Shown here piece after piece: positions 6,807 through 39,383 of a stretch of DNA of 64,000 nucleotides. The position numbers and the translations under genes were made by a program. Under the pieces are notes generated by a model. The model was not told the origin of the DNA. It was given only the letters and a program-made list of their open reading frames with translations, and ran no database searches. How positions within the stretch are numbered: the first letter of the stretch is position 1; each line of letters begins with the position of its first letter. Origin of the DNA: Promethearchaeota archaeon (GTDB lineage Archaea > Asgardarchaeota > Lokiarchaeia > Sigyniarchaeales > SOKP01); NCBI GenBank assembly GCA_019057795.1, contig JAHLWS010000005.1, forward strand, positions 1-64,000. The letters run 5' to 3'.

Positions 6807-7200
6807 TGCAAATAGAAAACCTATAGAAATAACTTCGAAATCAATTTATTCCAAAAATTTATTTTTCTTTTTTTTGATGATTATTACTTTGATATTACAA
6901 TTAAATATTACGTTATTGGATTTGAAGTGGCCTTCCTAACAGCTCTAATGAAGTATTTGATGAAAAAGGCGTAGTTTAAAAACATTTAAACTGAATTATA
7001 GTGTGCTAACGAAAGATGAAGTAAAGAAACTTTTCCTAATCTTATCTCAAGGATTTTGCTATACTTAAGGCAACAGCTTGACCAGGTGACTAAATTTATT
7101 TAAAATTAAAAAATTTACAATGAAACAAATAATAGGTAAAATACTTTAGAAAAATATTATTTGTAGATTCTTTATAACTTTCGATTGATATATAAAAAAT

Positions 7201-7671
7201 ATGAAAGAATGTTTTGGTTTATACATAGGTAACGATACGGATTGCTTTTGGGACGATCGATCTGGATGGTCTGTCGTACATGCTTGCAAACACCCATGTC
7301 ACTGTTATGCTGTAGGGTATAGGGGGAACCTACCTTCCACTCACCCGTCTTACTTAATATTTCGTCGCGAATCCCATTTAGTTTTAAATTTAGTAGATAT
7401 GGATCACCTAGATGACCGCTTTATGCGCCCTATCATAATGGCATTCTATAGTTTCATGGATGAGAAGGAAGGGCAAAAAATCCTAATACATTGTAATAAA
7501 GGTGAATCGCGTGCACCGAGCCTAGCTATCCTCTATTTAGCAAAACGCAGAAAAAAGATCCCAGATGATTCTTTTGATGCTGCAAAACAATCTTTTAAAA
7601 AGATTTATCCTATATATAATCCTGGACGAGGTTTTAATAAATATTTACATCAATATTGGGATTCTTTATAA
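7201..7671 (+). CDS. dual-specificity / protein tyrosine phosphatase-like protein
   Basis: HCx5R signature: ILIHCNKGESRAPSLAILYLA. Confidence 0.8.
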   Translation: MKECFGLYIGNDTDCFWDDRSGWSVVHACKHPCHCYAVGYRGNLPSTHPSYLIFRRESHLVLNLVDMDHLDDRFMRPIIMAFYSFMDEKEGQKILIHCNKGESRAPSLAILYLAKRRKKIPDDSFDAAKQSFKKIYPIYNPGRGFNKYLHQYWDSL

Positions 7672-7694
7672 AGTAAATACAACATAAGCGATAC

Positions 7695-7731
7695 TATCTC
7701 CCTCCCCCGTGTTGCTCCCTCCTAAAAAAGT
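7695..7731 (+). repeat. 37-bp C-rich intergenic repeat, copy 1
   Basis: tatctccctcccccgtgttgctccctcctaaaaaagt; 3 mismatches to copy 2. Confidence 0.8.
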
Positions 7732-7870
7732 ATGGGTAGAACAAGGTCAAATTAGAGAATTTTAATATCCCTTATTCCCTGAGAGATACTCTCGATCACC
7801 CAAAGGGCTAATGTTGTGGTTTAAATAGGATTGCAGTACTTTTCAAAAAAATTAATTAAATATTTAGTTT

Positions 7871-8515
7871 TTACTGCTCTTCTTCTATTTTTTTAAGAAC
7901 TGCACAAATGTTAGGAAATATTTCTTCAAGTTTAGTTATTCCGGTGTTCCTTACTAATTCTTCAATAGATATTCCCTTTTCCCTTAAAACTTGTTTTATT
8001 TGTTTTTTAATTGCTTTTCTCCCCGCGGACTCTCTTTTTCTTGACAGGTCAATTTTTACACCCAATTTGAGTTCCACCAATTTAGCAACTTCCTCCTCAA
8101 TAAAAACTTCTGGTCCTCCTATAATACAAAATAAAATGACATTATTTGGTCCTGTTTTACATTTTATTAAGAATGCTCCTTGGAGGGGTAGAACTTGATT
8201 GACACTTATACCTTTAGATTTTAAATGTTCCTGAATCTCGATTGCTGCATTCTCCTTAATGTGTTCCCCATCCACAATGAAAATAATTGAATTTGTCCGA
8301 AATTTTTCAGATAATAAAGGGATAGCATTAAGTGCATCCAGCCCTGTTTGTTTCTTAAGCGGTGTATTAATAGAAAATATTGCTTTATCATATCCATTAA
8401 ATTTCTTACAGAGATTCTTAAATATAACACTCTCAGGAAATGTTCCATTACCAGAAATTATTAAGTAATAGGAATCAATACCCTTAATACTCTCAACCAA
8501 TCTCATCAAAATCAC
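7871..8515 (-). CDS. hypothetical protein, partner of the upstream AAA ATPase (possible TOPRIM/DUF3226-like)
   Basis: 10-nt spacing behind the ATPase gene; IIFIVDGEH strand-acid motif; homology weak by eye. Confidence 0.5.
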   Translation of the reverse strand: MILMRLVESIKGIDSYYLIISGNGTFPESVIFKNLCKKFNGYDKAIFSINTPLKKQTGLDALNAIPLLSEKFRTNSIIFIVDGEHIKENAAIEIQEHLKSKGISVNQVLPLQGAFLIKCKTGPNNVILFCIIGGPEVFIEEEVAKLVELKLGVKIDLSRKRESAGRKAIKKQIKQVLREKGISIEELVRNTGITKLEEIFPNICAVLKKIEEEQ

Positions 8516-8524
8516 AACAAGGGT

Positions 8525-9484
8525 TTATAATCGAAGTGCGTCTAATAACAAGCGTGGGTCTGTGTTCGCATCTAATAAATCTTCTAATTCATCTAAAGTT
8601 AATATTTCATGACTTAAAATATCCTCATTTGACTTAGTCAATTGGATAATTGTAGTATCTGGTGGTTTAATATCTACCAAGTGATATAACACATCGATAC
8701 TATGGGTTGAAATTATTGTTTGCCATTTTTTACTCTTCAACCATTTTAGGAATAGTTTGATCATTGTAGGGTGAAATCCTGCTTCAAAATCATCAATTAT
8801 TATAAGTTTAGGTGATAGTACCTCAAATATCGCCATAATTTTTATTAATTTCTCTGCTCCAGATCCAAGATCTTTCAATTTGAGATATACATTGTTATCA
8901 GGATATACTTTTCTCAAACTAATAGGCTCAAGAAAAACAAGTTCGCTATAGACATCATTAACACATTCATTAAGGAATTTTGCGAGTTCAATATGATATC
9001 CTTTTTTCATTATTAATTCCTTAAGAACCTTCATTCTATTTTCTAAATCTCTCAGTATAAATGTAGTAAATGGAATGAATAATACCATTTCATTTCTTTT
9101 TGTTGGTGGCACTTCAAACTTTTCAGAGATTTTATTACCTATAGACATTTGATTGTTATTCCAATACGTACTGGTAGCATTTTCACTTATTTCAATAACT
9201 GCATTTGAGTTTTCAATCCCAAATTGTAAAGTTGAAGTTCCTGCATAAAGATAGAGAAGATCTTTAATTGAACCTTGGTGTAGTTCTTTTAAAATATCGA
9301 ATTTGTTTCTACCGGTTATGTAATCATAATCTTTTGGATCAGGTAATAAGGATAATGCTTCTAATATTGATGATTTTCCGGCATTATTCTTTCCAATTAA
9401 AACTGTAAAATTACTAAATTTTAAAGTTTTATCACAAGCCTTAATTCCTCTAAATTCTTTAATATTTAAACTGCTAACAAACAT
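8525..9484 (-). CDS. AAA/ABC-class ATPase (RecF/OLD-like)
   Basis: LNIKEFRGIKACDKTLKFSNFTVLIGKNNAGKSSILEAL (Walker A GKNNAGKSS), LGSGAEKL signature-like, KLIIIDDFEAGFHPTM (Walker B), IISTHS. Confidence 0.85.
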   Translation of the reverse strand: MFVSSLNIKEFRGIKACDKTLKFSNFTVLIGKNNAGKSSILEALSLLPDPKDYDYITGRNKFDILKELHQGSIKDLLYLYAGTSTLQFGIENSNAVIEISENATSTYWNNNQMSIGNKISEKFEVPPTKRNEMVLFIPFTTFILRDLENRMKVLKELIMKKGYHIELAKFLNECVNDVYSELVFLEPISLRKVYPDNNVYLKLKDLGSGAEKLIKIMAIFEVLSPKLIIIDDFEAGFHPTMIKLFLKWLKSKKWQTIISTHSIDVLYHLVDIKPPDTTIIQLTKSNEDILSHEILTLDELEDLLDANTDPRLLLDALRL

Positions 9485-9641
9485 GACATCTCAATTTATT
9501 CTCTTTTAAATTTCTTTAATATAATATAGTATTAATAACTGATATATTTAGAGTTCTACAAATTAAACTTTACTTCATTATTATCTTAACCTATAATAAA
9601 TACAATAGAAATATATAATTTTTCTTATTCTCTACTATAAT

Positions 9642-9678
9642 TATCTCCCTCCCCCGTAGTGCCCCCTCCTAAAAAAGT
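9642..9678 (+). repeat. 37-bp C-rich intergenic repeat, copy 2
   Basis: tatctccctcccccgtagtgccccctcctaaaaaagt. Confidence 0.8.
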
Positions 9679-9886
9679 AGAAAAATTGAAGTTTAATAAT
9701 TATTCGACCTTTTAGACTGAAACCTTATCCAAATTTCTCAAATAAAGGGTTATTTTATCATTATAAAGGTTAATTAGAGAGAATATCTTACTTATATATA
9801 ATATTCAACAATTCAATTAAGTGCTTTAATTTAAATATTAGATTAGATTAGCTATTAACTATATGAATTTAAATTAGTGACCAAAT

Positions 9887-10138
9887 ATGGCAAAAAAACA
9901 AAAAAAAAGAGATACTTATAGATATAAGTTAAAGGAAGGTAATGAAATTCTGAATTTTGGCATAACAGATGATCTAAAAAGAAGAGAATCTGAACATAAA
10001 AGTGAAGGAAAACAATTCTCTAAAATGGAAAAAGTTGGACCTGCGGTCACCAGAGAATCTGCCCTTAAATGGGAAAGGGAAAGTATCAAAAAATACAAAA
10101 AAAGTCATGGTGGAAAAAGTCCAAAATACAACAAATAG
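9887..10138 (+). CDS. small GIY-YIG-like protein
   Basis: TYRYKLKEGNEILNFGITDDLKRRESEH resembles the GIY-YIG core (Y.Y..G......GIT.DL.RR..EH). Confidence 0.65.
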   Translation: MAKKQKKRDTYRYKLKEGNEILNFGITDDLKRRESEHKSEGKQFSKMEKVGPAVTRESALKWERESIKKYKKSHGGKSPKYNK

Positions 10139-10168
10139 GAATTACCTCTTACTATTTCTAGTTTTAGT

Positions 10169-10205
10169 TATCTGCTTCCTCAGTGTTTTCCCCTCCTAAA
10201 AAAGT
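10169..10205 (+). repeat. 37-bp C-rich intergenic repeat, copy 3 (divergent)
   Basis: tatctgcttcctcagtgttttcccctcctaaaaaagt; same length and ends as copies 1 and 2. Confidence 0.65.
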
Positions 10206-10401
10206 GGGTGTTGAATAAAATCAATTGGTTGTAAAAAGATTTATTATTTAAAACAGCTTGAGTGCAGGAGTGGGTTTTAGAAGAACATAAATATGAATTT
10301 GTCGCAATTTTGATTGAAATCGATTAGGGGAGATTTGAATCTAAAATAAAAAAGAATTACTTTGAGCATAAATTTTTTAGGAAGATTTATTATGTGATTT
10401 A

Positions 10402-11502
10402 TTGATGGAAACGAATACAAACTTTGAGGAAATTATTCGAGAACTAAATGAACGCGATCTGGAACGATTTAAAAACTTGTCTGATCGCTTTAAACTCCAA
10501 TTAGATAAGATAAAAGATGGATTCGCTCCACCGATTTTAGAAAATTTGAATAATTTTTATTTGGATATATTAAATCATCTCGCTGAGGGTTTCAAATTTA
10601 GATTAAAATTAGTTATCGATACAAATATTATTTTCAGTGAAATAAGAGCAATCCTAATGGGCAAACCTTCATTTTTAAGTAATTTAATTAATATTCCATT
10701 TTTAGAACTATTTGCTCCAAAAAAAATTAGAGAAGAATTATTCAAGACAATAGAAGAAGATTTGCCACCTAATTTAGACAAGGAAAATGCTTATTCCTTA
10801 GCTTATTTTTTTTTTGAAAAAATTAGTATTTTAGACCAAGAAAATGAAGAAGCTTGGGAAAAAGCTCATATCTTACTAAAACAATATGATAAGGATGATA
10901 TTCCTTTTTTAGCATTAGCGATTTCTCTAAATGCACATGGAATAATCACTAAAGACAAACATTTCAATAGACAAGAAGATATGAGCGTCTGGAAATTAGG
11001 AATAAGTGGTAAAGTAACTTCAACAATCTCAAGAGGTGTTTTTTCTCTTTATATCATAGATTATAGCTTTAATAAAATTCTCTTCACTTTAGCAAGGTGT
11101 ATCTTTATTATTTTTCAGGGGTTTCTTGAGTTTTGCCATGAACTTTATTCTGCTATTAAAGCTGCTTTTATTTCAATGCATGAAAAGTATTCTAATTTAC
11201 CCACATGGCTACAAGTAGGTATCCCTGTTATAATCATAACAATTCCTACTTTAATTTTAATTTTTTCAGAAAAAGCTCGTAATTCATTAAAAGATTTCAT
11301 TATAGATTTAAAGGATAATTTGAGTCTATTTATAAAACATTTCAGTGATGATTTGAAATTTAATATCGAAATAATAAAAAACCTAACAATAAAATTATAT
11401 CCTTTTTTTGAATTAGTAATTGAAGGTATGGGCTATCTCTTTTATTCAGCTATTTTACTTGCTAAACAAATAAAGACATTAGAAGATCGATCTGTAATTT
11501 GA
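10402..11502 (+). CDS. PIN-domain protein with C-terminal transmembrane region
   Basis: KLVIDTNIIFSEIRAIL ... APKKIREELFKTIEE ... YDKDDIPFLALAISLNAHGIITKDKHF (PIN acidic pattern); later WLQVGIPVIIITIPTLILIFS TM helix. Confidence 0.8.
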   Translation: MMETNTNFEEIIRELNERDLERFKNLSDRFKLQLDKIKDGFAPPILENLNNFYLDILNHLAEGFKFRLKLVIDTNIIFSEIRAILMGKPSFLSNLINIPFLELFAPKKIREELFKTIEEDLPPNLDKENAYSLAYFFFEKISILDQENEEAWEKAHILLKQYDKDDIPFLALAISLNAHGIITKDKHFNRQEDMSVWKLGISGKVTSTISRGVFSLYIIDYSFNKILFTLARCIFIIFQGFLEFCHELYSAIKAAFISMHEKYSNLPTWLQVGIPVIIITIPTLILIFSEKARNSLKDFIIDLKDNLSLFIKHFSDDLKFNIEIIKNLTIKLYPFFELVIEGMGYLFYSAILLAKQIKTLEDRSVI

Positions 11503-11639
11503 TGAAACTATGATTTTTATCAAAAAGTTTAAATTATCTTAAATTAAGTTGTATTAAAAGAAGTGAAATAGAAAAAGTATCGAATAATGAATTTTTGGAA
11601 TACTTAGTGGATAAGGACAAATAAATTAAAACAGATCAA

Positions 11640-12809
11640 ATGATAAATTTAAGAAATAAAGTATTTTATATAATAATTTTTTGTTTTTCTTATGCTGTTT
11701 TCATTATAGTTGGATTAGGTCTTATGAGTAGATTAAATTATTATACAATTTTCTATACTTTAAAGGGTGATGATATTGTTGATAAAGAAGTATCCTTTGG
11801 GATGAATTTTCTCGGAAGTTTTATAAATTGGTCAGATTCAAATACCTATATTCTATTTTTTGAGGATAGTTTTCTGCTTTTATCCAATTTCATCTATTAC
11901 GCTTATGTTTTTTCTCATGTGATAATTTTAATTGGTTGGATCTTATTCACCTTGTCTAGTGCCAAGAAAAAAAAAAAGCTTGCAATTAGTATCTCCTTCT
12001 TTATTTACATTGGGATCTATATTTTTCTTATTTTTTATATGCCCTTAAGATTAGATCGAATGGTAGATCAAACAAATTTGAAATATATAGAGTTAAAGGA
12101 GTTTAATCCACAAATAACTTATCTTATTTTAAGCTCACCTGCTCCCTACTGTGAGATTTTCATTTGGTTTCCCATTATTTCACTCATTGCTTTTTATCTT
12201 ATTAATTATCTCTCTTTTCAACAATTAGTTGAGAAATTCGCATTTATCCTAAAGAGAGAGATATTTTTCAGAGATTTTTATGAAAAAGTTATAAAAAAAT
12301 ATAATGAAAACGAATATTGGGACATTAAAGAAACACTAGAATGGTGGAATAAGAGAACTCCTCCTCTCGTGAAGAAGCAAAAGCAAATTAAATTTTGTAA
12401 AATAGTTTCATCATTTGCAAACTCACAAGGAGGATTCATTATAATAGGCATTTCCAATTCATTTCCTCGAGAAATAATAGGAGTACCTAATATTGAAAAT
12501 TGGATGAAAGATCTCGAAGAGAAGCTGTTAAGATGGATGAGGTTTGAGAATAAATTCTATAGATTAAAAGAGATACTTCTTCCAAATGAAAATAACCAGA
12601 TGAGGAGATGCATTGCTCTCCTGATATTTCAGACTAAAAAACCCGTTTCGGTTGAAATAACTAAAGGAACATTCTTGTATGGTAAGAGATTAGGTTCAGA
12701 GAGCGTCTCAATTGACCCTAAAATATTAATTAAAGAAAAAAAAGAGGTCTCTAAATTAAACATTGACTTTCTCGAGGAAATGATAAAGGAATATGACTTG
12801 AGTTATTAG
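11640..12809 (+). CDS. membrane protein with C-terminal AlbA_2 / Schlafen-like domain
   Basis: Four N-terminal TM segments; KFCKIVSSFANSQGGFIIIGISNS matches the AlbA_2 core 'FANxxGGxxxIGI'. Confidence 0.7.
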   Translation: MINLRNKVFYIIIFCFSYAVFIIVGLGLMSRLNYYTIFYTLKGDDIVDKEVSFGMNFLGSFINWSDSNTYILFFEDSFLLLSNFIYYAYVFSHVIILIGWILFTLSSAKKKKKLAISISFFIYIGIYIFLIFYMPLRLDRMVDQTNLKYIELKEFNPQITYLILSSPAPYCEIFIWFPIISLIAFYLINYLSFQQLVEKFAFILKREIFFRDFYEKVIKKYNENEYWDIKETLEWWNKRTPPLVKKQKQIKFCKIVSSFANSQGGFIIIGISNSFPREIIGVPNIENWMKDLEEKLLRWMRFENKFYRLKEILLPNENNQMRRCIALLIFQTKKPVSVEITKGTFLYGKRLGSESVSIDPKILIKEKKEVSKLNIDFLEEMIKEYDLSY

Positions 12810-13086
12810 ATATAAAAGAATAACATAAAAATTTATTATTTAAAAATGATGAACTTCTTTATAAAAATAAATAAATTCAATTAAAATCTTGAAGTGATTA
12901 AAAAACCATCTGAAATCTTATTTAATATTTTTCTCGTATTGCCCTATTGGATTAATTTAAGGAGCGGAGATTATATTTTTCATAATGAAGAAATATTTAA
13001 TTCTCTATAAAAAAACAATAAAATTGAATCAGATACCATCTCAGGTTTGAAAAATTATATACTCAATATTCTGTCTCCTATAATTA

Positions 13087-13123
13087 TTAATTCCTTCCCC
13101 TATGGGCCCCCTCATAAAAAATT
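13087..13123 (+). repeat. 37-bp C-rich intergenic repeat, copy 4 (most divergent)
   Basis: ttaattccttcccctatgggccccctcataaaaaatt; shares CCTTCCCC..GGGCCCCCTC.TAAAAAA architecture. Confidence 0.5.
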
Positions 13124-13333
13124 ACTGCTATTATATTGAAATTTCTTGCTTTTATAATATTTTAACACTATTATATATATAAGTGAATAGAAATATGGAG
13201 GATTAAATTCACTGTATTTTAAAAAAGAGTTATAAAGTATGAATGATAAAGAAAGTGTATTTAGATTAGTTTTAGATCTGGACACTTAAACGATTAGTGT
13301 ATTTTAAAAAAGTATTATGCTAATATGCATTAA

Positions 13334-14989
13334 ATGTTTCCTTTAGAGATTTATTTCGTTCTAACTTTAATTTTATTTATAAGCACTATACTCTTTTACA
13401 TCTCAAAAATTAGGGAATATAACTCTCGTAAATCTCAGTATATAATATTGATCTTATTGGTAATCATGTGTGCAATTTACTTTTCAAATTTGGGTTCATT
13501 TAATCCTTCAGACACAGAAGATCCTGTTGAAACCGCAATTTTTAGTGGATTTTCATATTTATTACTATTTTTTTCTGTTTTTGTATTCATTAAATCTTTT
13601 TTTCCTTCTGACCAAGACATTATTGAATTGAAACCCCCTTCAAGATATAGAGCAAGAAAAGGTATTATTGAAATAGGAAAAGTTATGAAAAAAGAAAGAA
13701 AGAAACACAAATTCTTTCTCTCCCTTAAAGATCTTGAAAGACATATGTTCGTATGTGGTACTACGGGCTCTGGGAAGAGTAATTTCTTACAATATCTCTT
13801 AACCAACTTTAAAAAACACTATGATATTCCTTTCTTACTTGTAGAATTTAAGGGGGAATACACGTTTTTACAAGATATAATTGAAGATATGTTAATAATT
13901 AGACCTGGAGAAAATTTTTCTATAAATATATTTAATCCAGAGGGGGCCAATCCAGAAATTCACGCTGAAAGAATTTTTAATATTCTAAAAAGTGGACAAT
14001 TTTTAGATGAGCAATCGGAATTCTCCCCTCAAATGGAAAAAGTCTTGGTGGATATTTTAACAATAGTATGTAGTAATCCACAATATCAGAGCTGGAAAGA
14101 TTTTTTTAACCAATGTGAACAGTATCTAGAAAAGGAGAAAAGAAATATCCCTATGCTACATCAGAGTCTTGTTAGTATTCAAAATAGAATTAGAAGATTT
14201 TCATTGGGACCATTAAAAGCTATTTTTTCTACAAGGTATAAATTGAAAGTAAAAGATCTATTTGACAAGAATATTCTAATCGATCTAAGCTCTATTATAC
14301 GATTAGGTGGAGAAAAAGAAGATGCTCTATTTTTTCTAAATATGGTTTTAAAATATTTATGGGATAAAAATATAACACAAGGAGCGTATCAATTCAAAGG
14401 CATAAAGCACCTGACAATTATCGAAGATGTACAATATTTTGCACCAAAAGATTCATCATCCCAATCCAAATTGACAACTTACTTAGAAGATATCGCACTT
14501 TTACAACGAGGTACTGGCGAATGTTTGATTTCAATTGCCACACGCCCTCAAGTAAGTGGCGAAATTTTAGCAAATTGTGGCGTTTTGATTGTATTTAAAA
14601 GTTATATGCAGAGGAGTCTCCTCCGTGAAATACTGAATCTTGAAGAAGAAAATGAAGATTATTTGTCAATTCTAGAAGAAGGACAATGTATTGCCCGTGT
14701 AAACTCTGTAAGGAGACCATTTCTACTTTGGGTTCCGTATTTCGAAAGACACTGGTTAAAACGGGGAGACGTGAATAGAAAAAACAAACAAATTCTAAAG
14801 AGATTAAAGGATAAAGATAAACCAGATATTAAACTAAATATAGAAGAACTAAAGCAAAATACTAAAAAAGAAATAAAAAACAAAAACAAAAAAAAAGGTT
14901 CTAAACCTCATAAAAAGAAAATTTCACTGGAGAGTAATGGATTTAAGCATAAGATTTATTGCAAATTTTGCGGAAAAGAAGTAGAGTAA
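13334..14989 (+). CDS. membrane-anchored HerA/VirD4-like ATPase
   Basis: N-terminal TM helices; HMFVCGTTGSGKSNFLQYLL (Walker A), LTIIEDVQYFAP (Walker B), LLQRGTGECLISIATRP; C-terminal half zinc ribbon YCKFCGKEVE*. Confidence 0.8.
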   Translation: MFPLEIYFVLTLILFISTILFYISKIREYNSRKSQYIILILLVIMCAIYFSNLGSFNPSDTEDPVETAIFSGFSYLLLFFSVFVFIKSFFPSDQDIIELKPPSRYRARKGIIEIGKVMKKERKKHKFFLSLKDLERHMFVCGTTGSGKSNFLQYLLTNFKKHYDIPFLLVEFKGEYTFLQDIIEDMLIIRPGENFSINIFNPEGANPEIHAERIFNILKSGQFLDEQSEFSPQMEKVLVDILTIVCSNPQYQSWKDFFNQCEQYLEKEKRNIPMLHQSLVSIQNRIRRFSLGPLKAIFSTRYKLKVKDLFDKNILIDLSSIIRLGGEKEDALFFLNMVLKYLWDKNITQGAYQFKGIKHLTIIEDVQYFAPKDSSSQSKLTTYLEDIALLQRGTGECLISIATRPQVSGEILANCGVLIVFKSYMQRSLLREILNLEEENEDYLSILEEGQCIARVNSVRRPFLLWVPYFERHWLKRGDVNRKNKQILKRLKDKDKPDIKLNIEELKQNTKKEIKNKNKKKGSKPHKKKISLESNGFKHKIYCKFCGKEVE

Positions 14990-15353
14990 AACATGGAAAA
15001 ATGTGAGGAGTGTTCGACCAAATTAGAAAAGGAAGATAAAGAGCATATGGAATTAGAAAAATTCATAGATACTTTGTTGGACAAACAAAAAAAGAGTTAA
15101 AAAGGTTTGATGAAATGCACATGAAAAGATCTCATGCTTTCTCTTATTTTTGTTTTAGAATTCATAGATTATTATTTAATTTTTGTAATTATAAATCTTT
15201 ACCATCTTAAAGATCGTTTTGCTGCAAAATTAACCATCGAAATGTATTTTGCTGCTTTCTCCTATCCTGTTAATCTTGCATTTGATCAATCGTTAAATTA
15301 GATAAGGCAAATACAAATGTGCTTTAAATTCTGGAGTAATAGTATTTTTTATT

Positions 15354-16570: not shown

Positions 16571-17620
16571 TCATTCTTGTATCATAGCCTTTTTGAATTC
16601 AGCAATATGAGCATTATTCGCATAAAAGCGTTCTAAAGATTGTTTCATTTCAATAGCTATAGCTTTTATTACTGGGACGGGTACTGAATTAGCTAATTGT
16701 TTATATGCTTGTGTCATTGAAACAGGGAATATAAATGAATCGGGAAATCCTTGCAGTCGCGCCCATTCCCGTTCCGTCATTTTTCTTATCCCCTCGTTAT
16801 TCTTCTTTTTAAGTGGATCATCTCCTGGCCTCCACGCATCGTATTTTATGGTGTCTTTAACCAAATTTCTCTCTTTTCCCATTCCGCCGCAGACGATCGT
16901 ATTGGCCACTTCTTTCCGCCCTATGACCTGGTAACCGAATCCGTGTCCTTTTGCTTTATGACGTGTCCTATGATTTTTTAGCGTGTTCAGATATTGTTGT
17001 GATAAAAAATATTTTGTATTAACATCTTTTTCTAATATATTACCAATTCTAACATTTCTATTTTCGCCTTCAGGAAATTTAAATTTAATATCCTCCCTAA
17101 ATCCAACAATGTATATTCTTTTTCTCTTTTGAGGTAATCTAAAAAGACTGGCATCTAATATTGTGTAATAAATTGTATATCCTAATTCATTCCTTAAAAT
17201 ATCTTCAATAGTGTTAAAAGTTCTGCTTTTATCGTGATTTTTCAAATGTTTAACATTTTCAAGTAGAAAACATAAGGGTTTTTTTTCCCTTATGATATCT
17301 CTAATATAGAAAAAAAGGTTCCCTCTTTCGTCGTTAAAACCCTCCCTATATCCAGCTATTGAGAATGCCTGACACGGAAACCCAGCCAATAAAATATCAA
17401 AATCGGGAATATCTTTGGTAATTACTTCTTTTATATCAGCCTTTGGATTTTCTCCAAAGTTTAATTTGTAAGTTAGACAGCAAAATTCATCTATTTCACA
17501 TGAAAACACAAATTTTATCTGATCTCTGAATGCCTGTTCGAATCCTAATCGAATACCGCCGATACCCGCAAACAGATCAATTGCTTTATATATATACATT
17601 AAATTTATGTCAAAATCCAT
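16571..17620 (-). CDS. DNA (cytosine-5-)-methyltransferase
   Basis: Motif I DLFAGIGGIRLGFEQAF, motif IV GFPCQAFSIAG, motif VI ENVKHLKNHD, motif VIII QKRKRIYIVGF, motif X QLANSVPVPVI. Confidence 0.95.
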   Translation of the reverse strand: MDFDINLMYIYKAIDLFAGIGGIRLGFEQAFRDQIKFVFSCEIDEFCCLTYKLNFGENPKADIKEVITKDIPDFDILLAGFPCQAFSIAGYREGFNDERGNLFFYIRDIIREKKPLCFLLENVKHLKNHDKSRTFNTIEDILRNELGYTIYYTILDASLFRLPQKRKRIYIVGFREDIKFKFPEGENRNVRIGNILEKDVNTKYFLSQQYLNTLKNHRTRHKAKGHGFGYQVIGRKEVANTIVCGGMGKERNLVKDTIKYDAWRPGDDPLKKKNNEGIRKMTEREWARLQGFPDSFIFPVSMTQAYKQLANSVPVPVIKAIAIEMKQSLERFYANNAHIAEFKKAMIQE

Positions 17621-21824: not shown

Positions 21825-22246
21825 TATTTTTGTGAATCATATTAAGTGTTGGATTAGGTTTACATTATTAATGTGATCATTAGTATATAAATTTATTGTA
21901 TTAGATAATTATTAATGAGTATCTAATAAGATTTCATCGTATAGATAAATTTATTATATTTCTCTAAATATTATTAATCCTACTTTTTTATATAATAATA
22001 CTAGATCCTTTAGATATTCTTCCCAATATTTCTCTATTAACACAATATAAAAATAAATCTAATAATGTTAAAAAAATCTTAATTAATTTCTCAAACAAAA
22101 TTAACAAGAAAAATATTGATGATTTAAATATAATCATTTATTGAATTTCTAAAATTAAAATTTTTTTCTTTATATACTAAAAAATATGGATTATTTACGG
22201 TCTAATAGAAAAATGTTAATTAGATATTAGTATCCCTTATCACAGA

Positions 22247-23180
22247 ATGAATATATATAAAGCCATAGATCTTTTCGCGGGCATCGGCGGTATTCGTTTA
22301 GGATTCGAACAGGCTTTCAAAGATCAGATAAATTTTGTGTTTTCATGCGAAATAGATGAGTATTGCCGCAAAACATACTTTAACTGGTTTTCCGTGTCAG
22401 GCATTTTCTATAGCAGGATATCGGGAGGGATTTAACGACGAAAGAGGAAATTTGTTTTTCTATATTAGAGATATTATTAGAAAAAAACAACCAATTTCAT
22501 TTTTTTTAGAAAATGTAGATAATTTAATTACACATGATAAAGGTCGTACATTTTCAATAATTAATAATATCCTTGAAAGTGAATTAAAATATTATATCCG
22601 CTATAAGATTTTAAACGCAATGGATTTTGGACTTCCACAGAGAAGAAAAAGAATATTTATAGTAGGATATAAGAAAAATTTAAGGTTTGAATTTCCTAAA
22701 GGCGATAGTGGAAATCCTATGGTTGATGATATTCTAGAAACCAAATTAGTTGATGAAAAATATTATCTTTCTCAACAATTATTAAACACGCTAAAAAATC
22801 ATAGAACACGTCATAAAGCAAAAGGACACGGATTCGGTTACCAGGTCATAGGGCGAAAGGAAGTTGCTAATACGATCGTCTGCGGCGGAATGGGAAAAGA
22901 GAGAAATTTGGTTAAAGATACCATAAAATACGATGGTAAATTAGATGAGTTTTTAAAAATTGTTGAGCTTGTGTTAAACAAAAAACCTCAAAATATCGAC
23001 CTTGAAATGAAAGATCAGTATAGGCTTAAAATGGATGTAATTATGTTAAAATATATCGGTTTGAATAAAAAAGATGTTATAATTCTTTATAACGATTTGA
23101 TCAATTTAGTGAAACAAAGAGAAGAGAGAGCAACAAGTATAAAACGCGAGAAAAAGAAAAAAAATAATAATAAAAATTGA
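22247..23180 (+). pseudogene. decayed DNA (cytosine-5-)-methyltransferase
   Basis: Two frames: DLFAGIGGIRLGFEQAF (22247..22435) then GFPCQAFSIAG...ENVDNL...RRKRIFIVGY (22356..23180); segment before PCQ deleted and C-terminal motif X absent. Confidence 0.85.
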
Positions 23181-23327: not shown

Positions 23328-25384
23328 ATGTTAATAGAAACATTATCAATTGAGAATTATCGCTCCATAAAGAAATTAACCATTAAAATAAAAAATAACT
23401 TTTTACAATTGATTGGAGAAAACAATTCAGGGAAAACAAATGTTTTTAGAGCTATAGAGTTATTCTTTAAAAGTTCTGTTGCTGGAATTACACAAGAAGA
23501 TTTTTTTCAAAAGACCATAAAAAACTCGATTAAAATATCAATAACATTTTTCAATTTAACCGAGTCGGAAAATTCATTTTTTCAAGATTTTTTATGTGAT
23601 AACAAACTAATTATACAAAAATTATATCGATGAGCGAAGAAACTGAAAAAGTTTCATCAGATTTTCTAATAACACGAGATCTTCCAGAAATCCCCCATTT
23701 TGATGGTAGTAAATTTGATAAATGGAGAGAAAATAGCGAAGCAATTATTAATTTTTTTAAGGAATATGATTATGAAGATAATATTAAAAGCGATAGAGGG
23801 ACTATAACTAAAGCAAGTGTAGAAAAAGCTATACCTCAATTTATTAAAGAAAAAGGTAATGAATGTGAAACGAAAAAAAAGGAGTGTAATACAAACCTAA
23901 AATGGAAAGATATTTCTAGCTACTTACCAGAAGTGTTATATATTGAGGCGACAAAAAAAATTTCGGAAGAAGTAAAAACATCTGAAAGAAGTAAATCAAT
24001 TTATAAAAAAATTTTAGAGAAAATAATTTTAAAAAGCATAGAGGACAATTTGGATGATTCAAAAATAATTAAAGAATTTAAAAAAAATCGCAACCAGCTA
24101 GAAACCCTTCTAAAAAAAGGAGAAGATGAAGAAGATAAACGGTTTGAAATAATTAAACAAATTGAAAGTAATTTATTGAAGAATTTAAATCAAAATATTG
24201 CTACAAAAAGCATAGAAATTAAGATTTTTCCCCCAAGATTGCAAGATTTTTTTTCGAATACGGATATAATAATTAATGATGGAATAGAAAGCTCAATAGA
24301 AAATAAAGGCGATGGGTTAAAAAGGTCATTAATTTTTTCTCTTTTTATTACCTATTCAGAATATCTAAAGAATAAAATAAAAGATAAAGGAATTTCAGAA
24401 GATAAACCATTTTTATTTTTAATAGAAGAGCCTGAATTATATTTACATCCCCAAGCACAGAAATCCCTTAGGGATATATTAATTCTAATATCTACTTACG
24501 ATCAAGTGTTTTATAGCACTCATAGTTCTAATTTCATTGATATAAGTAAATATTTATCAATAGGATTAACAATTAAAGAACCGATAGAAACGGGTACTCA
24601 AATAAGTTTTATTGAAAAAAAGTTATTTGAACCACAGATACAAAAAGAATATGAACTTTTAATGAGATTCAATCCTGAAAGAAACGAAATGTTTTTTGCA
24701 AAAAAAGTGGTATTAGTTGAAGGTAATGTGGAGAAAATTGTATTATCTCATGTTGCTGAGTTAATGGGTAAAAATTTTGATAAATTAAATTTCTCATTAA
24801 TAGAATGCGGTGGAAAAACTATGCTATCTTATTTTATCACGGTATTATCCTGTTATTCTAAACCGATTATCGTTATTCATGATATTGATCCGTTAACCCC
24901 TGTACAAGAAAAATCTGCAGATGAATTACGAGAGTTAGGATATGAAAATCGAAAGATTGAGCAAATTCAAGAGAAGAAAAGACGATTTAAGGATAATAAT
25001 AAGATTGATGATCTTATTTCAAAAGAACATAATAAAATTGGCTTAATTACAATAAATCCTAATTTTGAAAAATTAATCGGAATAACACAACACGGAGATA
25101 AAAAAACTCTTAAAGCTTTTAAATTTGCTAAAGATCTTTCAAAAGAAAATATTGACAAAGATTTACAAGAAATAATTGATTTTATTTTAGCTTTTCAAAT
25201 AGATAAAACTCGGCACGAGATTAAAAAATACGAAATTGATTGTATTTCAAACAATGAAGAAAGTCATCTTGAAGAAGAACTATTACCAACAGACGAAACT
25301 GTACATGATAAGCCTAATTTAAATCAGAAACCTAAAGTGAAATATAAAGAACAAGTTAATTTAGATAGTTTTTTTGAAAGTTAG
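23328..25384 (+). CDS. OLD-family ATPase/TOPRIM nuclease, split by an ATGA frame break at 23630-23633
   Basis: First ORF has LSIENYRSIKKL...GENNSGKTNVFRAI; second has FLFLIEEPELYLHPQAQKSLRDIL (Walker B), STHSSNFID, VVLVEGNVEKIVLSH and IIVIHDIDPLTP (TOPRIM E and DxD). Confidence 0.8.
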
Positions 25385-25538
25385 CGTTAATAACGAATGA
25401 ATGAATTTTACTATAATTTAATTAATGTATATTTTAGATAATATAACTTCTTTTCAATGATTTAAACAAGTATTAGATATAAGTATAAGATAGTAAAATC
25501 TAATTTATTCTTTAATCAATTGACTATTAAAATTAATA

Positions 25539-26228
25539 GTGATTCAAATGGAGAAAAAAAGTGCTAAAGCTAAAATTCTGGAGTTATTTCAAGCGAATGC
25601 TAACAAGTGGATTCCTATAAATGATATTCAAAAGGTTGCTCAAATAAGTGAGTGGGCAAGAACGATTAGATTTCTAAAGGCGGAAGGATGGAAGATAGAA
25701 AAAAAAGGCGGCGGTAAAACTACAGAATATTGCCTTACATCTTTAGAAAAAAAGGAAGGTGTTGTGAGAGGACCTATAAATCCCAGAACCAGAGCAGGAA
25801 TTTTGCGTAGAGATGGTTATCGTTGTGTACACTGCGGAAAAAACCCTGAAGAGGATAATATCAAACTTGAAGTCGATCATATTATTCCTGTTGCATGGGG
25901 TGGAAAAACTGAGCCAAAAAATCTTCAATCATTATGTAGAAAGTGTAATCAAGGTAAGAAGAGCTATTTTTCTGATTTCAACGACGATGATGCTGTTAAA
26001 GATATAATAAAAGCACCATCTGGAACAGAAAAACTCCTACTAATAGGAGCAAAATTAATAGATCGTCCTTTAACTGTAGATTTTATAGGGACATTAGCTG
26101 GAATTCGCGATTGGACTCGCACTATTCGTTCTTTACGCCAAAAAGGTAGAATCAATTACAAATGGGACAGTAAAACCAACACTTACACATTTTTAGAAGT
26201 AAAAAAGAAAGAAAAAGAACGTCAATAG
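25539..26228 (+). CDS. HNH endonuclease flanked by winged-helix-like repeats
   Basis: GILRRDGYRCVHCGKNPEEDNIKLEVDHIIPVAWGGKTEPKNLQSLCRKCNQGK; EWARTIRFLKAEGW and DWTRTIRSLRQKGRI flanking repeats. Confidence 0.9.
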   Translation: MIQMEKKSAKAKILELFQANANKWIPINDIQKVAQISEWARTIRFLKAEGWKIEKKGGGKTTEYCLTSLEKKEGVVRGPINPRTRAGILRRDGYRCVHCGKNPEEDNIKLEVDHIIPVAWGGKTEPKNLQSLCRKCNQGKKSYFSDFNDDDAVKDIIKAPSGTEKLLLIGAKLIDRPLTVDFIGTLAGIRDWTRTIRSLRQKGRINYKWDSKTNTYTFLEVKKKEKERQ

Positions 26229-26261
26229 AAATTATTTTAGAGGATAAACAAAACTTATTAA

Positions 26262-27596
26262 TCAAATTTTTGATGATACTTGCTCATCAATAAATTTATC
26301 TAAACTAATTTCGGTATTAGGTGTAATGAGTAATTTCGATATTATGTTATGAAACTTTCTTTTATCGGAGATATTTAACAACTTCTTTGATATTTGAATT
26401 TGATTTTTATTAATTTTACTAACTATCTTAAAAAGCTCCATTTTTCTCAATAAAAGTTCTATATCGTTAATTCTAAGATAATTCCTGTTAATGAAAGTAT
26501 GAATGGATGAAATAAACTTCTTACCAGTCTTAGGAATGTCTTTTTTCTCGTAAAGCTTTTCCAATAAAACAACAATTTCTTCAAATTCTTCTGAAATTTG
26601 AAGCTTTTTCATAATAATAGGATTTAATAAAGAATTTTTCATTTCTAAAGCTAAACTTTTTATTACGGGTACAGCAACGGAATTTCCGAGTTGTTTATAG
26701 GCTTTGGTCATTGATACAGGAAATTTAAACGAGTCGGGATAACCTTGAAGGCGAGCCCATTCGCGGGGAGTCATTTTTCTTATTCCTTCTTCGTTCCGTA
26801 ATTGAATGTCGTCACCTTCCTCTTTCCAGCAATTTGGTAATATTTTATCATAAACGAGATTTCTTTCTCTTCCCATACCTCCACATACAATAGTATTTGC
26901 TATACCATTGCGAGATTTCACTTCGTATCCGAATCCATTTCCTTTTTCTTCGTGTCGGGCTCGATGTTTTTTTAAACCGCTTAAATATTCGTGAGAGAGG
27001 TAATAAGAGCTTTTAACTTCTTTTTCTAATATATATTCAATCTTTACAGGAGTATTGAGTGGTTTTGGGAATTTAAAAGCAAGATTATTCTTAAATCCGA
27101 TAATAAAAATTCTTTCCCTATTCTGAGGCACACCAAAATCTTTCGCGTTGAGAATTTTTGTATGGATGTTGTAATTCAAATCTTTAGTAAGAACATCTTT
27201 AATTATTTGAAATGTTCTTCCTTTATCGTGATTTCTTAGGTGTTTAACATTTTCTAATAAGAATGCATCGGGTTGTTTTACTCTTAAAATCTCGGCTAAG
27301 TTAAAAAATAAAGTTCCTCTTATGTCGTTGAATCCTCGCTTCTCTCCCGCTATAGAGAATGCTTGACACGGGAAACCGGCAAGCAGAATGTCAAAACTCG
27401 GAATTTCTTTAGGATTTACCTTAGTGATGTCTCCTAGAGGATTTTCACCAAAGTTTTCTTGGTAAGTTTTACACGCGTAAGGATCTATCTCGTTAGCATA
27501 CACGAACTTGATCTTATCTTTAAACACTTGTTCAAAACCTAACCTTATGCCTCCAATCCCGGCAAATAAGTCAACAGCTCGAAAATTTTGGTTCAT
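26262..27596 (-). CDS. DNA (cytosine-5-)-methyltransferase with C-terminal extension
   Basis: DLFAGIGGIRLGFEQVF, GFPCQAFSIAGEKRGF, ENVKHLRNHD, NRERIFIIGF, QLGNSVAVPVI. Confidence 0.95.
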   Translation of the reverse strand: MNQNFRAVDLFAGIGGIRLGFEQVFKDKIKFVYANEIDPYACKTYQENFGENPLGDITKVNPKEIPSFDILLAGFPCQAFSIAGEKRGFNDIRGTLFFNLAEILRVKQPDAFLLENVKHLRNHDKGRTFQIIKDVLTKDLNYNIHTKILNAKDFGVPQNRERIFIIGFKNNLAFKFPKPLNTPVKIEYILEKEVKSSYYLSHEYLSGLKKHRARHEEKGNGFGYEVKSRNGIANTIVCGGMGRERNLVYDKILPNCWKEEGDDIQLRNEEGIRKMTPREWARLQGYPDSFKFPVSMTKAYKQLGNSVAVPVIKSLALEMKNSLLNPIIMKKLQISEEFEEIVVLLEKLYEKKDIPKTGKKFISSIHTFINRNYLRINDIELLLRKMELFKIVSKINKNQIQISKKLLNISDKRKFHNIISKLLITPNTEISLDKFIDEQVSSKI

Positions 27597-27894
27597 TTAA
27601 AATTACCTCTTTTTCTGATCTTTTATTGCATGACTATATAAAAGAAAATTCTTAAGAATAGATTAATAAATCTTCGGTTATTAAATTTAAGAGACCGGCA
27701 TAACAGAAATTTACCAATTCATAAAGGTTTTGCTTCGCATTAACTAATTATCGTAAATCAAATTTTTTTAAATTTACTGTTAAAGAATATAATTTATAAT
27801 CAATGCGTAATTGTTACACGTCAGATAAGAGAATTCTTTAAAATGGGTTGTAATTATCTCAATAACAAAAACAAAAACAAAAAAATTCCAAGAA

Positions 27895-28536
27895 TTGATC
27901 CTAAACTGGGCGGATAATAATTTAGTTGAGTATCCGTGGCGAAATAAAAGGAATCCCTATAAAGTATTAATTAGTGAAATTCTCCTTACGCGAACAAAGG
28001 CTAAACAAGTCACTCCAGTATATAATGATTTTATGACAAAATATCCAACAATAAACCATTTCTTGAAAGCAGAATTAATTGATCTGAAAAAAATGTTAAA
28101 ATCCCTTGGTTTATTGTTTAGAGCCGAAATGCTAATAGAGCTTGCCTTTCAACTAAAAAAGGACTTTGATAATAAAATTCCAAACACCTTAGCGGAGTTG
28201 AAAACTCTAAAAGGAATAGGGGATTACGGAGCAAATGCAATATTATGCTTCGGTTTTAATGAGAGAAATCCATTATTAGATGTTAACTTCATCCGCATCT
28301 ATACACGAGTATTCGGTATAGAATCAAAAACAAAAACGCCGAAAACGGATAAATTCTTATGGGAAACTTCGAAAGAATTACTCCCCGATACTAATTACAT
28401 AAACTTCAACTACGGTGTATTAGATATGGGAGGAAATATTTGTTTGAATAGAATCCCAAAATGTACTATCTGCCCGATTAAGAAGTTATGCTTGTATTAT
28501 TCCAAATTCGGAGCGAAACAAGAGATAATAATCTAA
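27895..28536 (+). CDS. HhH-GPD DNA glycosylase with 4Fe-4S cluster loop (MutY/Nth/MIG-like)
   Basis: YPWRNKRNPYKVLISEILLTRTKAKQV, ELKTLKGIGDYGANAILCFGF (HhH), LLDVNFIR (catalytic Asp), C-terminal C-x6-C-x2-C-x5-C (CLNRIPKCTICPIKKLC); open frame extends upstream to about 27829, true start uncertain. Confidence 0.85.
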   Translation: MILNWADNNLVEYPWRNKRNPYKVLISEILLTRTKAKQVTPVYNDFMTKYPTINHFLKAELIDLKKMLKSLGLLFRAEMLIELAFQLKKDFDNKIPNTLAELKTLKGIGDYGANAILCFGFNERNPLLDVNFIRIYTRVFGIESKTKTPKTDKFLWETSKELLPDTNYINFNYGVLDMGGNICLNRIPKCTICPIKKLCLYYSKFGAKQEIII

Positions 28537-28841
28537 CTAATAGGCTAAGTGAGTTATTGGTTTTTTATAAGTAATTAAAGTAGGTTTAATTATTAGCTCT
28601 TGTTACGCTCCAAAATGTAAAATATATTGTAAAGATCTTAAAAATCCTAAGTCAAGTAGTCATATAAATTTAAAATTTCACTAAGAAAAATTAAAAACAA
28701 CTGTTTTAATTTTAAATGTATTTAAGACTTATATTCAATTTTAAATTAAAAATAATTGGTTTTAATAATATTTTTATAATAACTATTATAGATTAGAAAA
28801 CGGGAATTTAATTTAAAAATTAAAATTCAGAGATAATTTTA

Positions 28842-29813
28842 ATGCCATTTATTTTTTATAGTAGTGCTGATGAAACCCTCGATAATTTAGTTTTTAGTAA
28901 AAATATTTGGGGAGTTAGGACGAGTCGAGTAAAACCAAGTTTAGAAAATAAACCCAATGAATTTCGACAGGGAGCAATAATAATTTGGTATTCTAGTGAA
29001 AGTGCTTCTTTTATTGGCTAATCAACAATAAAGCATGCTAATTTTTTCCCATCTGAGCACACTAGTGACAATGTCAGTGCTTTTGAATTAGAAGCTACTT
29101 CTAAATTTAAAACAAAATTAAGAAGAACTCCTCAAATTTATAACTTGATTTCAGATTTTAGTCTATTATTTAACAATTATAGAATTATAGATAATGAACT
29201 TTTTAATAAAATTATCTCTATAGCAAAAACACCAGAAATAGAGTCTATAGAACCTATAGAACATTCACATAATTCAATAGTGAATAATTTATTAAATATT
29301 GGAAAATTAATGGGCTATGAGGTTTGGGTGGCCAATGATCTAAAGAACAAAATTATAAATGAAAAAAGGCTAGGAGATCTTTCTGTTGATGACTTAAATC
29401 TTCCTGGGTTTGACAATTCTACATTAAATATTCTAAAAGCGATAGATGTAATTTGGTTACAACAAACATATATTATAGCCGCGTTTGAAGTAGAACATAC
29501 AACCTCGATATATGGTGGGTTGCTACGATTTTCTGATTTGTTTTTATGCCTTCCTAATTTAAAAATAAATGCATATATTGTTGCACCAAATAATAGAAAA
29601 AATGTGGTTGAAAAACAATTAAGTAGAATTACTTTTAAACAGATCTTTAATAATAATATTGCCAGCGTAGTTAACACTATTTATTATTCTTCTTTAAATC
29701 TTGGGGTTGAAATTGTTGAATCTGTATATAAAAGAGGAGGCCATTATAATGCAGAAAACTTTCTTATTCATTGTGTAAATGAAGAGTGGTATGATATCAT
29801 GGATCAGAGTTGA
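28842..29813 (+). pseudogene. restriction endonuclease-like (PD-(D/E)xK) gene interrupted by one in-frame TAA
   Basis: ATG at 28842 in frame with ORF 29145..29813; TAA at 29019..29021; AIDVIWLQQTYIIAAFEVEHTTSIYGGLLRFSDL nuclease-like core. Confidence 0.6.
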
Positions 29814-29908
29814 AAAAATTAAGATTTCGTGAAACGGTTAGTAGAGAACGAAGAGATGAATAGAGTTTATAAAAAAAAATAATTAATAAAAATTTTAACT
29901 CTATTATT

Positions 29909-30511
29909 TTATTCGTTTTTCTTAAATTTACTGGCTACATGCTGCATTTCGTAAATAATTCTTAATAACTCCATGGTAAACATTAAAGTGGCTTTAGTTC
30001 GATTCTCATCTGGAGGAATCAGTTTATGAGTTGATTGATTTCCAATCTCTCTTATCAAATCCGCCCATTCTTTAATAATTGGAGTTATATATCCCTTTTC
30101 TTCAAGATAATCTAAATAACTGATAAAGGATTGACCTTCTTCAGCACCTTTATCTACACTAACGTGCATTAGAATCTTACGGCATACTAGCTCACATGCG
30201 GTAAAGGCATTTATTGAAAAACAACTTCGTGCCTCTTGATATGCAGCTTCAATTTCCACTGGAAGCCCTTCTAATTTTTCCCCTGGTTTAGTACCAGGGA
30301 TAATCTTACCTTCTGACCATATAGATCCTTTTATACAGGATGTACATATCATAAATTGGATAATTGGGTCATCTAATTTATTTTGAGTTCGAGAATATAT
30401 ATTTACAACTCTACCCGACACATGTCGATCACAATGGCCACATTTATAATCAAGTCTAGAAACTTGACTAGTTCCACCGATATTATTAATTAAATTCTCG
30501 TCAATTGGCAT
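29909..30511 (-). CDS. DUF4145-like protein with N-terminal zinc-ribbon
   Basis: YKCGHCDRH...FMICTSCIKGS; VEIEAAYQEARSCFSINAFTACELVCRKIL. Confidence 0.75.
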   Translation of the reverse strand: MPIDENLINNIGGTSQVSRLDYKCGHCDRHVSGRVVNIYSRTQNKLDDPIIQFMICTSCIKGSIWSEGKIIPGTKPGEKLEGLPVEIEAAYQEARSCFSINAFTACELVCRKILMHVSVDKGAEEGQSFISYLDYLEEKGYITPIIKEWADLIREIGNQSTHKLIPPDENRTKATLMFTMELLRIIYEMQHVASKFKKNE

Positions 30512-30632
30512 AGGAATTATTAAATAAGTTAATTATATAAAACTTATTATTAAATAATTGTATAAATATTCGTGAAATAACCGATATTATTAAAATTATT
30601 TCAATTAAATAATAATTTATACTTCATTTTCC

Positions 30633-31826
30633 CTATTCTTTATTTTCATCGCTCTTATCGAAGTGAAGTTTCCATAGTTTCCCTTCTTTATCCTCATAAA
30701 TGAAGCCCTCATCGGTTTCTTCAATTCTACTTAAATCTAATTGAATCATTTGGAGTCCTTCCTTTTTTCCCTTTTCTATAATTTGCTTTTGAACTCTGGC
30801 TTCTTTAAATGATGGGTCAATTTCCAGAGCTTTTTCAAAACATTTCAAAGCTTCCTCAAACTCTTTAAGCTCATATAATGCCCTACCCTTACATAACCAC
30901 TCAACTTTATCTTTTGGGTTTTTCTTTAATGCATTCTCGCAAGTTCTGATTATTTCTTCAGGATTTTCAAAGAAATTTCCCTCGATTTCATTGATTTCTT
31001 TTTCAACATCGTCTCTCATTATTACCCGAGGAATTCTTTCTTGAGGACTTTCCAAAAAACCTTTTATTGTATCTATTTGATGTCTTGCTTCTTCAAAGTA
31101 AGGATCAATTTCAAGTGCGGCTTTCATGCATTTTATTGCTTCCTCATAGTCACCTAAGCCTACCAACGCTATTCCCTTTCTATACCAAGCGTGTATAAAC
31201 GTTGAATCAATCTCTAATGTCTTATCATAATAAATTATAGCTTCACTATGTTTTCCTAACATTTCAAGGACCATTCCTTTAGAAAACAATGCATTAATAA
31301 AATTAGGATCAACTTCAAGAGCTTTTTCATGATATCTAATTGCTTCCTCGAATCTTTTTAAAACTCCCGCAGTCATTCCCTTTCTATACCACGCTTCTTT
31401 ATGCTCAGGATACAAATCAGTTATTTTAGTATAACATTCAAGGGTTTCTTCAAACTTTTGTAAATTGTAGAATGCCAATCCTTGATTCAACCATGCTTCC
31501 GCGTCTTCGGGATTCAATTCCAACACTTTCTTATAACATTCAATTGCTTCTTCATATTTTCCTAATATTCCCAAAGCAAACCCTTTATTATACCATGCCG
31601 CTGTGCTAGGTTCTATTTCCATGATTTTATCATAACAAAGGATTTCATCCTCAAATTGATTTAAGTTATGTAAAGCCGTCGCTTTAAAATACCACGCATC
31701 TAAATTAACGGGATCAATTTCAAGATATTTGTCAAAAATCTCAATAGCTTCTTCAAACTTCTGTTTTTTGATTAATTCAATACCCTTGTCTACCTCATGT
31801 TCACGATTAGGATTTTTGTTTTCCAT
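30633..31826 (-). CDS. tetratricopeptide repeat protein
   Basis: Repeated 34-aa units such as AWYNKGFALGILGKYEEAIECYKKVLELNPEDAEAW. Confidence 0.95.
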   Translation of the reverse strand: MENKNPNREHEVDKGIELIKKQKFEEAIEIFDKYLEIDPVNLDAWYFKATALHNLNQFEDEILCYDKIMEIEPSTAAWYNKGFALGILGKYEEAIECYKKVLELNPEDAEAWLNQGLAFYNLQKFEETLECYTKITDLYPEHKEAWYRKGMTAGVLKRFEEAIRYHEKALEVDPNFINALFSKGMVLEMLGKHSEAIIYYDKTLEIDSTFIHAWYRKGIALVGLGDYEEAIKCMKAALEIDPYFEEARHQIDTIKGFLESPQERIPRVIMRDDVEKEINEIEGNFFENPEEIIRTCENALKKNPKDKVEWLCKGRALYELKEFEEALKCFEKALEIDPSFKEARVQKQIIEKGKKEGLQMIQLDLSRIEETDEGFIYEDKEGKLWKLHFDKSDENKE

Positions 31827-31888
31827 TGGTTTTCAATTTGATTTGTTCTTTATATCTCTACTATGTTTCAGACCTTTTTAAAAAAAAA

Positions 31889-32671
31889 TTATTCGGATTC
31901 AAGAGAGGCCCAATATCCTGTTGGTTCATTACATGAAATTGTTTCTAATATTAAATCATAAGATCTTCGGAGTATTGTTTTATACTTATTTAGATCTTCC
32001 TCAGATTTTAGGGAGAGATAGCCCCATTTTTGTCCCCCAACGCGTTCTGTCCCTGCTGTAGCGGGATCTACGCCTTCCATCTCTTCTCCTCTGGTAAATA
32101 TCATTAATCTGATGAAGTTTTTTCTAAAATAAATATAAGTAAAGACTCTCTGGGGAGAATAGATAGTATAACCCAGTTTTACTCTTTTTACAACTATATC
32201 TTCAGAAAATGTTTTAAAGTAGCTTAGTAAATCATCGCTTAGATGAATTAAACTTTCGGGAATTATATTAAAATAATCTTCTCCTTCAGGAGGTTTTAAT
32301 GAATCAGGTCTTTTTATGGGTCTATTTTCAATCCCTTTTATTACATCCTTTAATTCTATCACTTCAAGATTTGAAGGACATCCATTCCAATTATGTTCCC
32401 AGCACACAATTACATCACATTCATTTGCATTATGACCATGTGTTTTAAAATTTTTGCTATAATATTCAAATTCAATTCTAATACGCGACCATCCCCTTCC
32501 AGTAAATCGTCTAGCAATACAATCTGGAAAACCAGGCTTTATCTCTTCTACATACATATTTAGATCTTCCATAACTTTACCAAAAAGAAATACAACTCCA
32601 TTTTCATTTAAAGGAGCATATACTAGACCTCTAAAATTAATTATATCTCCTACTACACTTTTATCTGCCAT
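31889..32671 (-). CDS. PD-(D/E)xK nuclease-like protein
   Basis: INFRGLVYAPLNENGVVFLFGKVMEDL...GFPDCIARR..RIRIEFEYYSKNFKTHGHNANECDVIVCWEHNW. Confidence 0.65.
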   Translation of the reverse strand: MADKSVVGDIINFRGLVYAPLNENGVVFLFGKVMEDLNMYVEEIKPGFPDCIARRFTGRGWSRIRIEFEYYSKNFKTHGHNANECDVIVCWEHNWNGCPSNLEVIELKDVIKGIENRPIKRPDSLKPPEGEDYFNIIPESLIHLSDDLLSYFKTFSEDIVVKRVKLGYTIYSPQRVFTYIYFRKNFIRLMIFTRGEEMEGVDPATAGTERVGGQKWGYLSLKSEEDLNKYKTILRRSYDLILETISCNEPTGYWASLESE

Positions 32672-33769: not shown

Positions 33770-33982
33770 GTATTGACTTTTAAAAATTACTAAATTAATC
33801 CATTTTATCTATTTTTAAATTGTTGTTGACTTTTCTAGCAAAACCTTAAAAACATGATAAATGGCTTTTTGTCGGCTACTAAAATCTGAAAAAGAACCAT
33901 TAGAGTCCTTTATTCTTTGATTTTAATTAACTGTTTAATAATAAATATTAATAGGCTAGTTGTCAAGTGTTAATGTATTGAT

Positions 33983-39352: not shown

Positions 39353-39383
39353 CTCTGCCAATTCGCCCAAATAATGCTTTAGA

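Follow-up and report, generated by a model that had tools for sequence, protein, structure and literature searches.

A 37-bp repeat of fixed orientation bounds defence and toxin-antitoxin modules in Lokiarchaeota and is a probable joint of cassette recombination

Gene modules carried between short repeated sites are known from several prokaryotic systems. Integrons, which have also been described in archaea (Ghaly et al., 2022; PMC9668308), hold their cassettes between attC sites that form a hairpin with R' and R'' boxes (PMC9668308). The XerCD-dependent pdif/dif modules of Acinetobacter place toxin-antitoxin (TA) and adaptive genes between short recombination sites, shuffled among loci (PMC6449649), and tandem integrative islands line up at one att site. 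Here we describe a 37-bp repeat, M1, from a stretch of 64,000 nucleotides (the window) of a lokiarchaeal genome, G000. M1 loci are like integron arrays in having tandem small cassettes, many of them with TA or defence genes, a repeated site in one orientation that is similar within a genome, and the gain or loss of one cassette together with one site, as seen between the genomes G071 and G072. The placement of TA and adaptive genes between shuffled short sites is shared with the pdif modules; with the tandem islands, M1 loci have in common direct repeats that all point one way and sit at a fixed hot spot on the chromosome. The genes carried are of the same kind as those of the Asgard defence repertoire (PMC11291487), the main text of which makes no mention of island, cassette or integrase. 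No description of the M1 element was found in the open-access literature searched.

The initial annotation of the window reported a repeated C-rich element in four copies, all intergenic and on the plus strand, and this observation is confirmed. The copies at 7695, 9642 and 10169 lie between ORFs where they had been placed and are 37 bp each, the first two differing at 3/37 positions as claimed; the copy at 13087 is more diverged, also as claimed, yet scores far above shuffled sequence (22.9 vs 8). PWM scores of 67, 67, 52 and 23 compare with a maximum of 8 over 20 shuffles of the window, and a later matrix gave zero matches above 4 on shuffled sequence. A 16-base pattern allowing up to three mismatches found four sites against 0.95 expected, which is weaker evidence than the PWM. 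As to the genes in between (Table 1), Pfam or PADLOC agreed with the calls of AAA ATPase, PIN_2, SLFN_AlbA_2 and HerA/DUF87. The phosphatase call holds only as a near match, just below the Pfam threshold, and the call of GIY-YIG between copies 2 and 3 has no Pfam match behind it.

Table 1. Repeat copies and gene modules in the window
Feature	Position	Strand	Remarks
Phosphatase cassette	7079..7732	+	M1 at right end; ORF 7201-7671; DSPc just under Pfam cut-off
M1 copy 1	7695..7731	+	37 bp; PWM 67; R1 E 3.8e-11; right edge of phosphatase cassette
ATPase-pair module	7868..9622	-	ORFs 7871-8515 and 8525-9484; AAA_15, PARIS/AbiL-like
Promoter-like conserved stretch	9577..9625	-	Upstream of minus-strand gene; common to other modules, also without M1
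M1 copy 2	9642..9678	+	PWM 67; R1 E 3.3e-11
83-aa ORF	9887..10138	+	Between M1 copies 2 and 3; earlier GIY-YIG call; no Pfam match
M1 copy 3	10169..10205	+	PWM 52; R1 E 1.2e-7
PIN_2 protein	10402..11502	+	Pfam/PADLOC
Schlafen AlbA_2 protein (SLFN_AlbA_2)	11640..12809	+	Pfam/PADLOC
M1 copy 4, diverged	13087..13123	+	PWM 22.9; R1 E 1.6e-6 (copy itself included in model)
HerA/DUF87 module	13253..15149	+	After M1 copy 4; ORF 13334-14989

Several of these modules recur elsewhere. The phosphatase block is present in another genus at 94% identity among other neighbours, the match stopping precisely at M1's right edge, and homology to the genome G030 stops at the 3' edge of copy 1. A block common to the window and G014 begins within copy 3, at 10191; G014 also carries the HerA/DUF87 module (91%), with a different left neighbour. 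The ATPase-pair module is found at 84-85% in G062 and G036, there without M1. Extended homology of about 60-90 bp on the 5' side was considered as part of M1 and rejected; since it occurs without M1 and upstream of minus-strand genes, we take it to be a shared promoter. The window also contains a large inverted repeat (16837-17600 and 22246-22935, 77-89% identity) and, at 1-200 and 2098-2292, two more short repeats that are recurrent across many genomes of the family.

Across 53 copies, the M1 consensus (CTCCCTCCCCCGTGGTGCCCCCTCCTAAAAAAGTAGG) is a conserved 37-bp block with sharp edges, preceded on its 5' side by a weak pyrimidine tract. Conservation is higher on the left, as far as about CCCCCTC, than on the right, where alternatives such as TAATTACTCGGGGAAAA occur. 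Folding of the 53 copies revealed no RNA or DNA hairpin (mean z -0.05, both strands; single copies were folded too), there was no Rfam match, and terminal inverted repeats are absent. Pairs of attC R-boxes were detected in 1/53 copies per strand vs 1.0 in shuffled sequence, which is chance level, and a dyad in the core is missing (0/22 identity), as is any dif-like dyad of the 28-bp Xer type with two inverted arms. The right end has a CCTA-AAAAAG-TAGG arm, in which CCTA/TAGG gives a weak pairing signal only. One strand is T6/G-rich, and 38/53 copies contain a two-tier G4 motif, which by sequence makes them putative G-quadruplexes. Two other readings of the element were rejected: the mirror-symmetric core (CCTCCCCCGTGGTGCCCCCTCC, identical when read backwards) as H-DNA, the mirrored positions being without co-variation, and a coding role, as judged from the absence of an open frame through the sequence.

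The initial annotation had proposed a profile scan of the genome and its relatives, and this returned 25-26 copies in the genome and M1 in 35/65 genomes of the same GTDB Lokiarchaeota family. The former count comes to 26 with R1, a sequence-only model applied to the 4.95-Mb genome G000 at a cut-off of E<=0.1: 17 copies on contig C78, 4 in the window and 5 single ones (on C67, C34, C4, C65 and C80). The family count was obtained with R2, a broader model, which detected M1 in 0/18 genomes of other families and orders of the class. The exact core matched solely Lokiarchaeota MAGs in the GTDB collection and nothing in IMG/VR, where carriage by viruses was looked for. Copies are distributed neither randomly nor behind core genes only, the patterns that the initial annotation had named as speaking against it. 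Of the copies, 79/82 lie outside ORFs and only 3/82 mostly within ORFs of at least 80 aa, despite 69% local coding, and in G000 the element sits in islands of defence genes (the C78 array and the window), while the loci with a single M1 hold TA genes (VapBC, ParE/RelE, AbrB-PIN, DUF433-DUF5615).

All 15 local clusters (56 sites) are uniform in M1 orientation, with no discordant site; if orientation were free, the chance of this would be about 2^-41, a rough figure given the shared descent of some clusters. The genes to the left and right of M1 occur in all four orientation combinations (23/20/19/14 among 82 copies), so M1 is independent of transcription. Integron cassette genes, in contrast, are mostly co-oriented. 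The pdif modules have inversely oriented XerC/D and XerD/C sites (PMC6449649), whereas M1 sites are direct in 15/15 clusters, and the pdif site is of dif type with a dyad, unlike the 37-bp M1. Moreover, M1 shows neither the hairpin nor the boxes of attC. With no attC fold, no Xer dyad and direct sites, the M1 system is assigned to neither integrons nor pdif. It also differs from tandem integrative islands in that most M1 modules comprise one or two genes and no integrase.

The 17 copies on C78 are all on the plus strand and make up a 44-kb array (58.9-102.9 kb), most intervals between them holding one or two genes. Its cargo includes HEPN, Hypoth_Ymh, a Pycsar pair, PIN, FRG, DUF6602, AbiTii, restriction-type and unknown genes; the Pycsar pair (PycC + PycTM, 72995-74275) is complete, in a Lokiarchaeon. 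The array is flanked by Nep1 and a zinc alcohol dehydrogenase gene, anchors whose spacing is ~69 kb in G000, ~5 kb in G023, G015, G068 and G024, and 24 kb in G007. By this comparison, the array is an insertion between the anchors. At the same hot spot M1 is found in G003, G004, G010, G008, G022 and G030, oriented identically with respect to the anchors. A direct repeat of 8-10 bp is seen at one G000/G003 junction only. A second array, eight M1 copies in a single orientation on contig C34 of G058, adjoins the rpS13-S4-S11 genes; large genes between its copies (24001-43000) look by eye like a BREX-type set.

Other repeats are also present in these regions. On C78, a unit of ~290 bp with a 66-aa protein is repeated at 69943-70229, 76170-76454 and 106598-106882, and partial copies at 54745, 95438 and 100373 keep the 3' end alone, resembling a gene 3' end that serves as an integration target. 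A second widespread intergenic repeat (GAAAGGTAAATTCAGAGTCTGATTTC..) lies at 58880-58917, 71161-71215 and 85327-85381; many family genomes contain it, and some modules have it at their edges. On C34 of G000, a HAD gene and an ATPase gene border a hypervariable slot (40983-43699), which measures between 23 bp and 4 kb in relatives; in G000 it holds an insert of 736 bp that carries M1 and an RHH antitoxin.

Comparisons between genomes place module boundaries at M1. The segment C78:84196-85261 matches G058 starting at the left edge of M1. A VapBC cassette is shared by two Lokiarchaeota MAGs as 872 bp of homology (87%), bounded by M1 on both sides within unrelated flanks; it is found with M1 at both ends in G072 too, and no consistent target duplication was seen at its ends. 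A second VapBC begins at M1 in G024, G000-C65 and G074. There are counter-cases: in G067, G036, G010, G062 and G014 the same genes occur but M1 is lacking, and there the homology ends 10-60 bp before the G000 M1. The exact two-sided indel comes from one genome pair, G071 and G072, which share a locus with flanks ~90% identical. The order is flankL-M1-RelE-M1-VapBC-M1-flankR in G071 and flankL..M1-VapBC-M1-AbrB/PIN-M1-flankR in G072, so that the AbrB/PIN unit with one M1 and the RelE unit with one M1 are exact presence/absence units, and homology of flankR ends exactly at the M1 edge. Thus M1 does flank presence/absence gene modules, a point that the initial annotation had raised. The terminal M1 of G071 (TTATTGCCCTCCCCGTGGTGCC TCTTACTAAAACAATATTA) is chimeric relative to the G072 copies around AbrB/PIN, its left part being that of the copy before and its right part that of the copy after, which points to exchange within M1, near GGTGCC^. 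A half-site identity test on more genome pairs gave a modest signal, with p about 0.02 for right halves and nothing for left halves.

Taken as a recombination joint of an integron-like cassette system, with exchange inside the element, M1 would account for most of this, and we consider such a role probable. A cassette would hold one or two genes (antiviral, TA or nuclease) that are transcribed independently, and would be bounded by M1, beginning in the right half of one copy and ending in the left half of the following one. Recombination between two M1 sites, with an exchange point at about positions 21-24 (GGTGCC^), would insert cassettes, remove them and pass them between species. Such exchange would join sites head to tail, giving uniform direction per locus with genes either way; it would explain the observed polarity, free gene orientation, single-gene intervals, the chimeric junction and the occurrence of the same cassettes in different genera. 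The main rival is homologous recombination between M1 repeats, which explains losses well. M1 may be conserved for another reason and act as a passive linker, the short repeats supplying homologous or microhomology joints for module swap or deletion, much as conserved boundary sequences do between the modules of phages. Such a linker would account for the loss of cassettes, for exchange within M1, for the chimeric M1 and for the same-gene copies without M1, and the 8-10 bp direct repeat at the G000/G003 junction suits microhomology. At G071/G072, gain and loss are indistinguishable, so a cassette may have been lost there through homologous recombination between M1 repeats. The gain of M1-bounded TA cassettes at unrelated loci and conservation of sequence over 37 bp are nevertheless left unexplained, and a 41-bp repeat matched at 70-85% is ill suited as a substrate for homologous recombination; we regard the passive linker as rather unlikely.

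The other options listed in the initial annotation fare worse than that of a cassette-recombination site, which agrees with M1 bounding presence/absence modules, clustering in defence arrays and being locked in orientation; its interpretation is in this sense partly supported. That M1 is a small MITE-like or IS200/IS605-like mobile element, or the end of one, inserted with one polarity into intergenic gaps of the islands, fits the dispersed single copies and the strand polarity. The lack of inverted repeats, of a transposase and of consistent target duplication at cassette ends, the crowding of 17/26 copies into 44 kb, and the G071/G072 indels, which are gene plus M1 and not M1 alone, make it very unlikely. 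Slighter still is the probability of a transcription terminator, insulator or G-quadruplex element between independent defence genes. The T6/G-rich strand and the two-tier G4 motif speak for it, the latter as a property of the DNA only, and the terminator or leader RNA is unsupported in view of the equally common gene orientations, which include divergent gaps needing no terminator, and of the lack of a hairpin and of an Rfam match. Neither fixed polarity nor cassette indels would be explained by a G4 element, nor would a terminator or insulator account for the indels.

For cassette recombination at M1 we infer a dedicated site-specific recombinase and a circular intermediate. An integron array is adjoined by its integrase, whereas no recombinase linked to M1 was found in G000, where five PF00589 matches lie away from M1 and the arrays. 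CALINs can lack an integron integrase. An integrase flanked by M1 was found once elsewhere, in G079, where it is of phage type and lies in an M1-bounded 10-kb region; it is related (40-53%) to two of the five tyrosine-recombinase matches of G000 and is a candidate only for the M1 enzyme. These proteins form a lokiarchaeal tyrosine recombinase family of 300-306 aa, 40-53% identical, which includes members on C82 and C22 of G000, the one between two M1 copies in G079 (302 aa, contig C168) and one beside Nep1 in G058. More tentatively, Lokiarchaeota may possess a cassette system of their own, independent of integrons and Xer, with a non-palindromic, non-hairpin 37-bp site, a putative enzyme and polarised defence/TA arrays at chromosomal hot spots.

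How Asgard archaea gather and shuffle their antiviral genes is an open question, to which M1 offers a sequence handle, and Asgard defence genes have been discussed as sources of eukaryotic immunity. Since M1 delimits modules, the position of an unknown gene within a cassette makes it a candidate for a defence or TA role, and the mechanism (M1 x M1 exchange, circular cassettes, the enzyme) becomes directly testable. The M1 loci suggest integron-like gene swapping in Lokiarchaeota with a different kind of site and a hypothetical enzyme.
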